Shown: piece after piece, positions 166 through 5,473 of the stretch
How the letters are laid out: the number at the start of each line of letters is the position of its first letter
How positions within the stretch are numbered: the stretch's first letter is position 1
NCBI GenBank assembly: GCA_016182435.1
Contig: JACPGN010000120.1
Location: forward strand, 1,011-6,486
Direction: 5' to 3'
From: Lentisphaerota bacterium
GTDB lineage: Bacteria; Verrucomicrobiota; Kiritimatiellia; JAAZAB01
DNA: 5,476 nt
Notes under the pieces: generated by a model
What the model was told of the DNA's origin: nothing
The model's database searches: none
Seen by the model: only the letters and a program-made list of their open reading frames with translations
Translations under genes and position numbers: made by a program

Positions 166-636
166 TCAACCGCCGCGCGTCAGCGCCACGGCCTGAACCA
201 GCAGCGCGACCATGATGCCCATCAGCATGCCCAGCAACACTTCTATTTGCGTATGCCCCAGCAGCTCGACCAGCCGCTGGCGGGGAAACCGGTGCGTCTT
301 GAACAACTCGTCCAGCATCTGGTTCAAGACGCGAGCCTGCTCGCCGGCGGCGCGGCGCACGCTCTGCGCATCGAACATGACGATGGCGGCAAAGGCCAGG
401 GTGACGGCAAACAGCGGGTCGGCCGTGCCCAGGCGGATGGCTACCGAGGTGCAGAGCGCCGCGGCCAGCGAGGAATGCGCGCTGGGCATGCCGCCGGTGC
501 TGGCCAGGAAGCCGAAATCAATTTTGCGCGCCTGCACAAAAAAGCAGACCATCTTGGTGACCTGCGCCAGCATCCAGCCGCAGAAGATCGCCCAGAACGT
601 CGGGTTAAACCACCAGCCTGTCCAGATTGAATGCAT
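166..636 (-). CDS. Divergent PAP2 family (DUF212/YuiD-like) membrane protein
   Basis: This is a 156-residue protein of the family annotated as divergent PAP2 / acid phosphatase-vanadium haloperoxidase related (DUF212, Bacillus YuiD type). Its biochemical role is not established. Three family blocks are visible: STGGMPSAHSS at about residues 46-56, FDAQSVRRAAGEQA at about 88-101, and ELLGHTQIEVLLG at about 124-136. The PSAH and GH elements resemble the phosphate-binding signature of PAP2 enzymes. Hydrophobic stretches at about 12-35, 55-88 and 130-152 indicate an integral membrane protein. The length is normal for the family. I chose the ATG at 636 because the family begins close to this point and a GGGAG Shine-Dalgarno-like run lies about 6 nt upstream. 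An in-frame GTG at 747 would add 37 residues, but they would be translated from an intergenic palindrome and look unlike the family. The gene is 206 bp from the upstream sugar transferase, so it is probably expressed separately. Confidence 0.9.
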   Translation of the reverse strand: MHSIWTGWWFNPTFWAIFCGWMLAQVTKMVCFFVQARKIDFGFLASTGGMPSAHSSLAAALCTSVAIRLGTADPLFAVTLAFAAIVMFDAQSVRRAAGEQARVLNQMLDELFKTHRFPRQRLVELLGHTQIEVLLGMLMGIMVALLVQAVALTRGG

Positions 637-698
637 GGGCTCTCCCGCGAGTAGGTGTGGTTGCTGAGCCGCTTGCAAGACTATTTGCGCGCGGCAAG

Positions 699-734
699 TT
701 TTCCTCCTCAGGCGGATCCGCCTTTGGCGGAAAA
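699..734. repeat. 36-bp near-palindrome centred on GGATCC
   Basis: The half-sites 699-716 and 717-734 are reverse complements at 15 of 18 positions. The core AGGCGGATCCGCCT (710-723) is a perfect 14-bp palindrome. On the plus strand TCCGCC-TTT-GGCGGA (717-731) also forms a tight hairpin. The element lies 63-98 bp upstream of the DUF212 gene start, so it may fall in its leader or promoter region. Confidence 0.75.
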
Positions 735-832
735 GTTCAGCGTTCACGGTTCACAGTTTACGAACATGCTGATCATAAATATGTCGGGCATAAATCCACT
801 AACCTTGAACCGTGAACTATTGAACTGTGAAC
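735..832. repeat. Two facing arrays of a GTTCACG-like heptamer
   Basis: Four consecutive 7-bp units lie at 735-762 (GTTCAGC, GTTCACG, GTTCACA, GTTTACG). Four units in the opposite orientation lie at 804-832 (CTTGAAC, CGTGAAC, then an 8-bp TATTGAAC, then TGTGAAC). Exact complementary pairs include 742-751 with 808-817 and 748-758 with 823-833. The arrays could fold into a long hairpin with a spacer of about 41 nt. A run of six T follows on the plus strand (837-842), and only TTTT follows on the minus strand (734-731). The element starts 10 bp after the sugar transferase stop, so it may also help end that transcript. Confidence 0.7.
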
Positions 833-842
833 CTAATTTTTT

Positions 843-1552
<710 letters not shown>

Positions 1553-1565
<13 letters not shown>

Positions 1566-1590
1566 GCGGGCTCAACTCGATCATGCGGGC
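1553..1590. repeat. Exact 19-bp tandem duplication
   Basis: TCAACTCGATCATGCGGGC occurs twice head to tail, at 1553-1571 and 1572-1590, with no mismatch and no extension on either side. Nineteen is not a multiple of three, so the duplication throws the sugar transferase out of frame. Reading through only one copy joins ...IGQARMIEL to ILLCEQELVTF... and restores a normal protein. The unit contains the ATG used by the downstream frame. Confidence 0.97.
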
Positions 1591-2310
1591 CTGACCGATG
1601 CTGGTATCGGTGAGGATTAGCTGGTCGGCCTGATTGCCTTCGATAAAGGCGCGCAGATCGTCGAGCGAGCCTTTAATTGATTCCGGCGGAATCTCGGGGT
1701 GCGCCTCGCCCGCGCGCGTCTTAAAAAAGGCCACCACCCGCGCGCCCAGGCGCGGCTCCTGTTTCAGCGCTTTCTTCAAGTGCGCGGCGATGGCGTCGGC
1801 GCCCACGATGGCCACCCGATTGACCACCCGCCGGCGCCGGGCCAGGCGCCATTCCCAGCGGAAGAGCGCATAGCGCTCCAGCAGGACCAGCAGCGGCACG
1901 GTTGCCACCGCGAGCAGCACGGTGAGGCGCGAAAAGGGCGGCTCGGTGCGCAGGACGAAGGCCAGCGCGGCCGCCACCAGGATGGCCAGCAGGACGCCGC
2001 GCACAATCCGGGGAATCTTATCGCTGAACGCGCCGATTTGCGGGCGAACGTAAAGGCCCAGGGACTGGAAAATCAGCAGGAACAGGAACGCGCCGACTCC
2101 GGCGCCCTGCGCATACATGCTGTATAAGTTGAGCGGCGGCCGGTCGTGAAAGAGCGGGATCACTCCGCTGTCAAACCGGAGCCAGGTGGCCAGCAGGAAG
2201 CCGCAAAACACGGCCAGCGCATCGGCGCCGATCGCCACGCAACTGGCCAGTACATCGGATGTATCGCGAACGCGCATGGCTTTATTCGTTCCCGGTTTAA
2301 TCTATAATAA

Positions 2311-3492
2311 TTAACCAAGCAGCGGGATATCCGTCTCCCGGCCCTGGTTCTGGGCCGAGACATAGGCGGCATAAAGCGTGCTGACCGTATCGGCCGCCAG
2401 TAGCTCATCGCTCTGCGGCGCGCGGTCGTCCCGCAGGCATTCCATGAAGTCCTGCAGCTCCTGCGGGTAGCCGGTCATCCAGTTTTCATCCGGCGCGGGA
2501 AAGCTCCAGCCCTGCTTGGTGCCCAGTTTTTCCGTGAGATATACGTGTTGGAGTTGTTTTTCCACCGGGTTGTAGAGCAGATTAGCGTCGGTCGGATTGA
2601 TGTTGCAGCGCATACGGTGGTTGTTGGCGTAAATTTCCATCCAGTTATGCACCCCGCCCATCACGAGCTCGCAGGAAAACACGTCCGCCAGCATGCCATC
2701 CTCGAAGGTGAGGTGCACCTGGACAAAATCCTCGACATCTTTGTAATCGGTGCGCAAGTGGCCCTGGCTGATAAACTGCGGACTGCGCGTCACCGCATGG
2801 GTGCGGCAACTTACGGTTTTCGGCCGGATAGCGCGCTTGAGCCGCTCAAGTCCCTCAATGCGCTTGAGATACAAGGCGGCGGTTAGCGGGTGGCACCCCT
2901 TGCCCACCAGCGATCCGCCGCCCGAGAGATGCCAGTCGCCATAGGCGCTGCTGACACTGCCGCTGTGGCTTTCCTCGGCGTGAATCCACAAAATCTGGCC
3001 CTGGGTGGCGCGCAGGATTTCAGCTTCCTTCTGCACGGAAGGCGCATAGACCCAGTTTTCGGCATAGAATAATTTGACGCGCTGCTTGCGGGCGGCATCA
3101 ATCATCCGCTGGACCGATTGCAGGGCTTCATTGAGCAGGCCGTGCTTATCCGCGCGGTCGCCCCGCCAGTCGGGCGTGCCGGGTCCATAGGCGCCGGTGA
3201 ACGGTTTTTCCACAATGACATGGCGGCCCAGTTCACAGGCGCGCAGGCACAGCGGCTCGTGCAAAGCGCCGGGCACACAGAGGTCCACCACGTCCACAGC
3301 GCGGGCAAGGTCGTCAAAGCTGTCAAAGGCCCTAATGCCGTTCTTAGCGGCAAAGGCCTGGCGGCTTTCCTCCGATTTAGAATAAACGCCTACCACCTCG
3401 ACGGCGACTCCGCCGATGTTCCGGTAGGATTCCAAATGGAACCGGGCCGCGAAACGCGCCCCCGCCAGGCCGACCTTAATGGGTGCTTTCAT
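2311..3492 (-). CDS. Gfo/Idh/MocA family NAD(P)-dependent oxidoreductase
   Basis: This is a 393-residue cytoplasmic oxidoreductase of the glucose-fructose oxidoreductase / inositol dehydrogenase / MocA family, whose members oxidise or reduce hydroxyl groups of sugars, inositols or sugar nucleotides. The N-terminal Rossmann domain starts IKVGLAGARFAARFH at about residues 5-19. The nucleotide-binding turn is GLAGAR rather than the common GxxGxG form. VEKPF at about 94-98 holds the conserved EKP lysine (K96). The C-terminal substrate domain has GGGSLVGKGCHPL at about 191-203, with H201 at the usual active-site histidine. The Asp often seen in the DxGxH version of this motif is replaced by Gly. 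A conserved-looking AENWVYAP segment lies at about 144-151. The length is typical. The ATG at 3492 fits the family start, although no good ribosome site precedes it. The gene ends 33 bp before the sugar transferase, which suggests one operon and a possible role in making a precursor for a surface polysaccharide. The substrate cannot be assigned. Confidence 0.92.
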   Translation of the reverse strand: MKAPIKVGLAGARFAARFHLESYRNIGGVAVEVVGVYSKSEESRQAFAAKNGIRAFDSFDDLARAVDVVDLCVPGALHEPLCLRACELGRHVIVEKPFTGAYGPGTPDWRGDRADKHGLLNEALQSVQRMIDAARKQRVKLFYAENWVYAPSVQKEAEILRATQGQILWIHAEESHSGSVSSAYGDWHLSGGGSLVGKGCHPLTAALYLKRIEGLERLKRAIRPKTVSCRTHAVTRSPQFISQGHLRTDYKDVEDFVQVHLTFEDGMLADVFSCELVMGGVHNWMEIYANNHRMRCNINPTDANLLYNPVEKQLQHVYLTEKLGTKQGWSFPAPDENWMTGYPQELQDFMECLRDDRAPQSDELLAADTVSTLYAAYVSAQNQGRETDIPLLG

Positions 3493-3748: not shown

Positions 3749-5473
3749 TCATCCGGTTCGTTTCAGGAGTTTCTGCAGGGCGCTCCAGCCGCGGGTGTTG
3801 AGCACGTCATCTTTCTCCAGCCAGCCGCGGCGGGCCTGGCCGAGACCCAAACGCATCAAATCAAGATCATTGGGATTATGGGCATCCGTGGAAATCGCCA
3901 CCTTCACGCCCAGGTCTTTGGCCATGCGGCAATAAGCGGCGTTCAAATCCAGGCGCTGGGGGTGGGCGTTCAACTCTATAAAACAGCCGCGTTCCCTGGC
4001 GGGGGGCAACAGGCGCTCCAAGTCCACCTCATAGGCCTCGCGCTCGCCGATCAGCCGGCCGGTGGGATGAGCCAAGATATGGAAATAGGGATTATCCATG
4101 GCGCGGATGATCCGTTCGGTCTGCTTCTCGCGCGAGAGGGTAAAGAGATGGTGGACGGAGCCCACGACAATATCCAGCTCCTTGAGGATGTCGTCGGATA
4201 AATCCAGCTCCCCGGATTCGAGGATGTCCACCTCAATTGATTTCAAGATGCGGAAGCCGCGGAACTTTTCGTTCAGGCGATCAATTTCATGGATCTGCTG
4301 CTTCAGGCGCGCGCTGTTCAGGCCGTGGACCATGCTCAGGCGTTTGGAATGGTCCGTAATCGCCAGGTATTCATAGCCGCGTTTTTGCGCCGTTGCGGCC
4401 ATTTCCGCGATACTGCTTGTGCCATCCGTGGCGTTCGAGTGGGCGTGCAAGTCGCCGCGGATATCCGCCAGGGTAACAAGTTTCGGCAGTTGGCCGCGCT
4501 CGGCCGCTTCGATTTCGCCCCGGCCCTCGCGCAGTTCCGGCTCGATATACGGCAACTGCACCGCGGCATAGACCTCCTGCTCCGTTGCCCCGCCCACGCG
4601 CTTCTCGCCGCGAAACACGCCATATTCATTGAGCTTGAGTCCCTTCTGCAGCGCGCGCGCGCGGATGGCAATGTTGTGCGTTTTGGACCCCGTGAAATAA
4701 TGCAACGCGGCGCCATAGCTCTCTTCCGGTACCACGCGCAGGTCCACCTGCAGGCCTGAGCGCAGCACAATTGCCGAGCGCGTTGGGCCCTGCGCAATTA
4801 CCTTGGCGGCATCCTCATGCCCGACAAATCTCCGCATGATTTCGGCGCTGTCCGCGCCGGTCGCCAGGATATCCACGTCCCCCACTGTTTCCAGCCGCCG
4901 CCGAAAACTGCCGGCCGGCACAACCTGTTTAACCCCTTTCACCCCGCGTAAAGTTTTCAGCAGCGACGCCACGACTTGTTCAGCCGTGAACCACAACACG
5001 CGGTTCCCGGCCTGGGTTTTCCTTTCGATATACTCGCGAATTTTTTGTTCGGTTTTTTCGGCAAACCCGGCCAGGGTCCGCAGTTTGCCGGTGCGCACGG
5101 CGTTGCCCAGGCCTTTAAGATCCATGATCCTCAACTTTTCGAAGATTTCATGGACTCGTTTGGGGCCCAGTCCCGGAATCTTCATCAGGTCGCTGAGCGT
5201 CTCCGGTACCTGCTTGGCCTCCTTTTCCAATGCTTTCAGATGCCCGGTTTCCACGATCTCCTTCATTTTCAGGGCCAGGGCTTCGCCGATGCCGGGCAAT
5301 TCGGACAAGTCCTCTTTAGCCGCGACCATATCGGTCACGCTGCGCGGCAGGTTTTCCACCAGCCGGGCGGCGTTGCGGTAGGCGCGCACGCGAAACACAT
5401 TGGCGCCCTCGATTTCCAGCAGGTCGGCCAGCTTGTCGAGCGTTTGGGCAATTTCGATATTATGAACCGGCAT
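3749..5473 (-). CDS. polX: DNA polymerase/3'-5' exonuclease PolX (family X polymerase with PHP domain)
   Basis: This is a complete 574-residue PolX, the bacterial family X polymerase that fills small gaps in base-excision repair and carries a metal-dependent PHP nuclease domain. Order of parts: an N-terminal 8-kDa-like helical region (about 1-50); helix-hairpin-helix DNA-binding motifs around LPGIGEAL (59-66) and IPGLGPKRV (99-107); the nucleotidyltransferase core with AGSFRRRLETVGDVDIL (187-203), giving catalytic D199 and D201, and the third carboxylate D244 in VDLRV; then the PHP domain from about 338. All PHP metal-binding motifs are present: DLHAHS (H343, H345), ATDG (D350), ITDHS (H375), E414 in SIEVDIL, VGSVHH (H441), ILAHP (H469) and STDAH (D530, H532). 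Both activities should therefore be intact. The length is typical. MPVHNIEIA is the usual family N-terminus, so the start at 5473 is probably right although only three bases upstream are visible and no ribosome site can be judged. It appears functionally unrelated to the polysaccharide genes downstream. Confidence 0.96.
   Translation of the reverse strand: MPVHNIEIAQTLDKLADLLEIEGANVFRVRAYRNAARLVENLPRSVTDMVAAKEDLSELPGIGEALALKMKEIVETGHLKALEKEAKQVPETLSDLMKIPGLGPKRVHEIFEKLRIMDLKGLGNAVRTGKLRTLAGFAEKTEQKIREYIERKTQAGNRVLWFTAEQVVASLLKTLRGVKGVKQVVPAGSFRRRLETVGDVDILATGADSAEIMRRFVGHEDAAKVIAQGPTRSAIVLRSGLQVDLRVVPEESYGAALHYFTGSKTHNIAIRARALQKGLKLNEYGVFRGEKRVGGATEQEVYAAVQLPYIEPELREGRGEIEAAERGQLPKLVTLADIRGDLHAHSNATDGTSSIAEMAATAQKRGYEYLAITDHSKRLSMVHGLNSARLKQQIHEIDRLNEKFRGFRILKSIEVDILESGELDLSDDILKELDIVVGSVHHLFTLSREKQTERIIRAMDNPYFHILAHPTGRLIGEREAYEVDLERLLPPARERGCFIELNAHPQRLDLNAAYCRMAKDLGVKVAISTDAHNPNDLDLMRLGLGQARRGWLEKDDVLNTRGWSALQKLLKRTG

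Follow-up and report, generated by a model that had tools for sequence, protein, structure and literature searches.

Large monotopic phosphoglycosyl transferases initiate the assembly of glycans through the transfer of a sugar-1-phosphate onto undecaprenyl phosphate. Their prototype, WbaP of Salmonella enterica, is made up, according to the available text of one report, of a membrane bundle, a PF13727 domain, which makes most of the dimer contacts and is implicated in uridine nucleotide binding, and a C-terminal catalytic core (PMC10942596). Tandem duplication in this family of transferases is already known. For wchA of Streptococcus pneumoniae, whose product WchA/Cap8E is an undecaprenyl-phosphate glucose-1-phosphate transferase of the same enzyme superfamily, the available text of a second report records a 9-bp tandem repeat giving Y63* in nontypeable isolates, in which nonsense and frameshift mutations of the gene, including G243*, were also found (PMC4022640). 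The gene described here is likewise broken by a short tandem duplication, and as such the case is an ordinary one; however, the pneumococcal alleles have been compared within the species, with a phenotype and reported reversibility, whereas the present allele comes from one contig of an uncultured bacterium.

The stretch of DNA that was analysed (5476 nt, hereafter the window) comes from a Kiritimatiellota-like bacterium and carries on its minus strand the gene for a large monotopic phosphoglycosyl transferase. The gene is divided into two overlapping open reading frames (ORFs), the N-part and the C-part, and the features that concern us are as follows.

843–2277, minus strand: transferase gene overall, comprising the N-part ORF and the C-part ORF
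1477–2277, minus strand: N-part ORF, 266 aa, with the N-terminal region and most of PF13727
1609–2064, minus strand: PF13727 (CoA_binding_3, the 'DUF' of large monoPGTs), profile positions 2–148 of 175
1572–1590, minus strand: 19-nt copy toward the 5' end of the gene, where the N-part frame reads ARMIEL
1553–1571, minus strand: 19-nt copy toward the 3' end of the gene, carrying the ATG (1565–1563) that opens the C-part ORF
1477–1565, minus strand: overlap of the N-part and C-part ORFs, 89 nt, in different frames, with more C-frame starts at 1514 (GTG), 1496 (GTG) and 1493 (ATG)
843–1565, minus strand: C-part ORF, 240 aa, with the tail of the regulatory region and the complete catalytic domain
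864–1400, minus strand: PF02397 Bac_transf catalytic domain, profile positions 1–175 of 179, 230.5 bits
1260–1267, minus strand: C8/G8 run (G8 on the coding strand) inside the catalytic domain of the C-part, mixed sequence in relatives, frame intact
166–636, minus strand: DUF212 gene, from a conserved ATG
2311–3492, minus strand: Gfo/Idh/MocA oxidoreductase gene
3749–5473, minus strand: PolX gene

The exact 19-bp tandem duplication on which the original prediction was built was confirmed. A repeat search of the window returned two adjoining 19-nt copies, at 1553–1571 and 1572–1590, which are 100% identical at a spacing of 19, and Tandem Repeats Finder gave a period of 19, 2.0 copies, a 100% match and a score of 76; this pair is the only exact tandem repeat in the window with a unit of 10–150 nt. 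A chance origin is excluded: the expectation for a 19-nt pair at lag 19 is about 4e-8, and in 300 Markov-1 simulations covering unit sizes of 8–40 nt no exact tandem unit exceeded 11 nt, a length reached a single time, and 256 of the 300 lacked any. The array consists of exactly two copies and is not extended at either side. Slippage on a pre-existing direct repeat was considered and rejected, as there is no flanking homology. A search of Rfam at gathering scores found no known RNA element.

Since the duplication adds 19 nt, the reading frame moves by one. The N-part runs through 235 native residues and then 31 out-of-frame residues up to a TGA, with the stop at 1477, and the last 27 profile positions of PF13727 are unmatched in it; the cut falls in the last part of this regulatory domain, ahead of the catalytic domain. 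The NCBIfam model TIGR03025 (445 positions) is shared between the two halves, the N-part covering positions 2–207 and the C-part 206–436, and the C-part alone scores 346.6 bits against a cut-off of 295.55. PF13727 and PF02397, which stand on a single chain in relatives, are found on two ORFs in the window. The one chain that defines large monotopic phosphoglycosyl transferases of the WbaP/WcaJ/EPS type is accordingly absent here, and the complete catalytic domain that also defines them is present in the C-part. Two features had been overlooked by the original prediction, namely that the break, which lies within the regulatory domain, leaves the regulatory and catalytic modules apart, and that the ATG opening the catalytic half is supplied by the 19-nt unit itself. 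The further claim that the rest of the gene is undamaged stood as regards frames and domains, with one doubtful spot, the C8/G8 run at 1260–1267. This run yields Gly, where the relatives carry Arg or Lys in 197 and Gly in one of the 234 proteins (out of 240) that matched the motif used for the residue recount; it may reflect faulty base calling or a homopolymer of recent origin.

The C-part matches WbaP chains, including 8t53, and the window differs from S. enterica WbaP in that its chain is divided by a frameshift inside PF13727. When the C-part was modelled alone with AlphaFold, the mean pLDDT was 78 and the pTM 0.75, with all ten-residue blocks from residue 41 onwards at 67 or above and the first 40 residues at 40–52. 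Four matches to the model were obtained at E values up to 0.001, to PglC (8g1n twice, and 8e37) and to WbaP (8t53), and the sequence matches of the C-part to solved chains agree with these. The N-part, compared by sequence with solved structures, gave no match. The C-part shares a PglC-type core with PglC of Campylobacter, a small monotopic phosphoglycosyl transferase (8g1n, 39% identity by Foldseek), but it keeps about 50 residues, modelled with low confidence, before the core, and is known here from its sequence and model.

A scan of the genome collection found four relative loci at 75–86% N-part identity, from uncultured Lentisphaerae, Kiritimatiellae and Verrucomicrobia metagenome-assembled genomes (MAGs). 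When their DNA (L001–L004) was aligned with the window, the 19 additional bases were seen in the window only, each relative having one copy, and the closest, L001, carries the identical 19-mer once without a mismatch. At four further loci (L014–L017) there is no adjoining pair of unit-like matches and the frames are unbroken. Among ten genomes of the family a full-length, stop-free orthologue was present in eight (G006 gave partial or diverged matches only, and G010 none), and in all eight the frame is uninterrupted across residues 1–471 of the L001 protein, within open frames of 473–507 aa. Comparison with related genomes, as proposed in the original prediction, has therefore revealed one copy in the four relatives L001–L004 and no two-copy form in the eight orthologues examined. 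In the wider class, 204 of 240 genomes gave matches with E values of 1e-30 or lower, and no internal stops occur among the matches listed, in which a frame change would show as a separate entry. Partial matches were inspected in ten class genomes, others (such as those of G100 and G082) being left out. They terminate at or near contig ends (G132, at L042 and L043, G179, G089, G145, G102, G026, G143 and, at L102, G152), run into 100 N (G109) or break elsewhere: in G028 (L104 near 922) the frame of the transferase changes around residue 132, and in G152 (L045 near 320–343) a frame change is accompanied by lost residues near 280–311. Neither of these two lies at the window junction or has an exact tandem unit of at least 10 nt there, and further splits at that junction were rejected for the ten genomes. 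Breaks of the transferase on single MAG contigs, whether by mutation or error, are consequently not unique to the window.

The protein searches revealed no second allele. In the N-part search the window's own entry, P0001, has one member on one contig of 6486 nt, and among the best 120 of 161 matches no other protein exceeded 87%, so that no same-species allele with one or two copies was found there. In the C-part search, which left out full-length proteins by length, the best identity was 82% among the best 120 of 7987 matches, the window's own C-part not being among these; the L001 protein is 94% identical over the C-part. Five short relatives (P0015, P0024, P0041, P0058 and P0095) were considered as instances of the same split and rejected, since all extend past the junction.

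Between the window and L001, the N-part had a Nei–Gojobori dN/dS of 0.21 and the C-part one of 0.11, compared with 0.15–0.17 and 0.11–0.17, respectively, between L001 and the three other relatives; the values for two neighbour genes that are intact were 0.085 and 0.18. Lineage-specific amino acid changes in the window and L001 numbered 11 and 7 in the N-part, and 7 and 6 in the C-part. Purifying selection thus persists on either side of the duplication, so that this must be either a recent event or no real one. There is no clear sign of decay, although the small surplus of changes in the N-part speaks weakly for it, and the N-part value, slightly above the range between relatives, also counts against a real mutation. 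An old, decayed pseudogene was rejected, given the low dN/dS of both parts and the lack of a further frame break. The predicted recent or artefactual origin therefore agrees with the data, relatives having a single copy and the window lineage showing no clear excess of changes.

In our view, a single recent mutational event or a slip during assembly is the most likely origin, rather than a built-in switch. Our preferred reading, to which we assign a probability of about 45%, is that of a real, recent and private tandem-duplication mutation in one sampled population, with transfer lost or strongly reduced, and we rank it slightly ahead of an artefact. In such a mutation, 19 bases would have been duplicated without flanking homology inside the transferase gene, shifting the frame within the PF13727 regulatory domain; the expected effect would be that the sugar-1-phosphate transfer starting a surface or exported glycan is lost or strongly reduced. 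That the duplication sits in a living cell rather than in the assembly alone is an inference, as are the drop in activity and the kind of glycan made. Some translation of the intact catalytic half may leak through, begun at the ATG that the unit carries or resumed close to the N-part stop; the additional C-frame starts at 1514, 1496 and 1493 precede this stop. The C-terminal domain of WbaP is said to be sufficient for catalytic activity (a finding credited to Patel in 2012), and so the lesion would not have to abolish the function altogether, although loss or strong reduction of activity would seem the likelier outcome. An assembly or scaffolding artefact, the main alternative named in the original prediction, is a serious competitor in view of the single contig and the exact, unextended pair of copies. 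The cell would then have one copy, and the second would stem from a 19-nt contig-end overlap left unmerged or from a low-coverage error that was kept. Exactly 2.0 copies without extension are what an unmerged overlap would leave, but a mutation without microhomology leaves them as well, and the lack of extra matching bases fits non-homologous duplication and unmerged overlap equally. Usual short reads are longer than 38 nt, and reads should therefore span the pair; moreover, the remaining genes of the window all have unbroken frames, which argues against a generally bad consensus. Against a real mutation, the two-copy allele has been seen on one metagenome contig only, none of the eight orthologues examined has such a pair, and the suspicious G8 run, about 290 nt from the duplication, could be a local error; the sporadic frame breaks on single contigs of G028 and G152 may likewise be errors. 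The PF02397 gene is single in six of the eight related genomes searched (G006 and G010 left out; genome completeness not given), so that losing its function could come at a cost to the cell, and an artefact becomes more probable accordingly. A survey of three genomes of the class, covering 1.42 Mb in 71 loci without the short and gene-centred ones, counted 31 exact tandem pairs of at least 10 nt, four of them with units of at least 19 nt and none of these four both a non-multiple of three and of exactly two copies; such duplications are uncommon. Searches of the literature on false duplications in assemblies and on reversible or short tandem duplications found little of use. By itself the finding, one unverified lesion on one contig, is of little weight. 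If real, it adds an uncultured phylum to the losses of the first glycan-synthesis enzyme by short tandem duplication and provides a natural test of the catalytic half working without the regulatory domain; if an artefact, it is a useful example of an assembly join imitating phase variation.

Readings in which the two-copy form has a function of its own are less probable. Functional fission would have the C-part translated from the unit's ATG and acting, without its regulatory domain, as a small PglC-like transferase. It is unlikely, even though the C-part has a complete catalytic domain opened by that ATG, a PglC-like model (8g1n, TM 0.61/0.74), a dN/dS of 0.11 against L001 and, in WbaP, a counterpart whose C-terminal domain is reported to suffice for activity. 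Shine–Dalgarno pairing at this ATG (−3.5 kcal/mol) comes close to that at the N-part (−4.3) and Gfo/Idh (−3.8) starts and is far weaker than at the DUF212 start (−7.4); it is modest, and the start sites do not decide the question. Five of 17 proteins inspected from the best 120 of the 7987 C-part matches (P0125, P0150, P0208, P0210 and P0231; 239–245 aa) have a Met start near the same point; they hold the catalytic half only, as either fragments or natural splits, and if fragments they would lend fission no support. Also against fission, the ATG is not conserved (Thr in three of the four nearest relatives, Met in L014 and L015), no promoter-like site was found by sigma-70 consensus, and pneumococci carrying nonsense or frameshift truncations of WchA, such as G243*, were nontypeable. 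A regulatory toggle, the two-copy form making the catalytic half alone from the same ATG while the cell alternates between a nucleotide-regulated large and an unregulated small transferase, strikes us as very improbable.

Improbable, too, is the on/off switch of the original prediction, in which the duplication would form and collapse often enough to toggle a surface glycan. Spontaneous sequence duplications in the pneumococcal capsule genes cap3A, cap8E (the same enzyme type) and tts have reportedly been described, by Waite in 2001 and 2003, as phase variation. The available text of a further report calls such pneumococcal capsule-gene duplications reversible (PMC4243769). On the other hand, tandem duplications of 26–116 bp in lrp of Xenorhabdus are grouped, in the available text of PMC6786866, with mutations that do not count as phase variation; there the reversal tests concern eight isolates, not necessarily including a duplication. 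An unstable repeat conserved in relatives, as expected of a contingency locus, does not appear to exist here, to judge from the single copy in L001–L004 and the absence of a pair in L014–L017. The pair is absent from the eight orthologues examined, the site has no iterated tract, collapse would have only 19 nt of homology to act on, and the best 120 of 161 N-part matches include no one-copy allele of the same species. With no second same-species allele found, nothing shows switching, and the idea is without support of its own here.

The original prediction also spoke of capsule or surface polysaccharide, which the surroundings do not show: no capsule cluster is seen in the window, and the neighbours in these 5.5 kb (Gfo/Idh oxidoreductase, PolX and DUF212 protein) include no flippase, polymerase or glycosyltransferase gene. 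No sigma-70-like promoter was found in 600–2500 by sigma-70 consensus, and seven terminator-like matches, against 1.9 expected, all fall inside the coding sequence of the transferase and were set aside. The transferase and DUF212 genes are 206 nt apart in the window (637–842), whereas L001 has 5 nt between them and L004 next to none, and the palindromic short-period repeat stretches that follow the transferase stop differ among the window, L002 and L003, a comparison made partly by eye. Arrays of a similar kind, of TTGAACATCGAACA, are present in L088, from another genome of the class. Imperfect TTGGATA repeats also occupy the intergenic positions 45–99 of the window.
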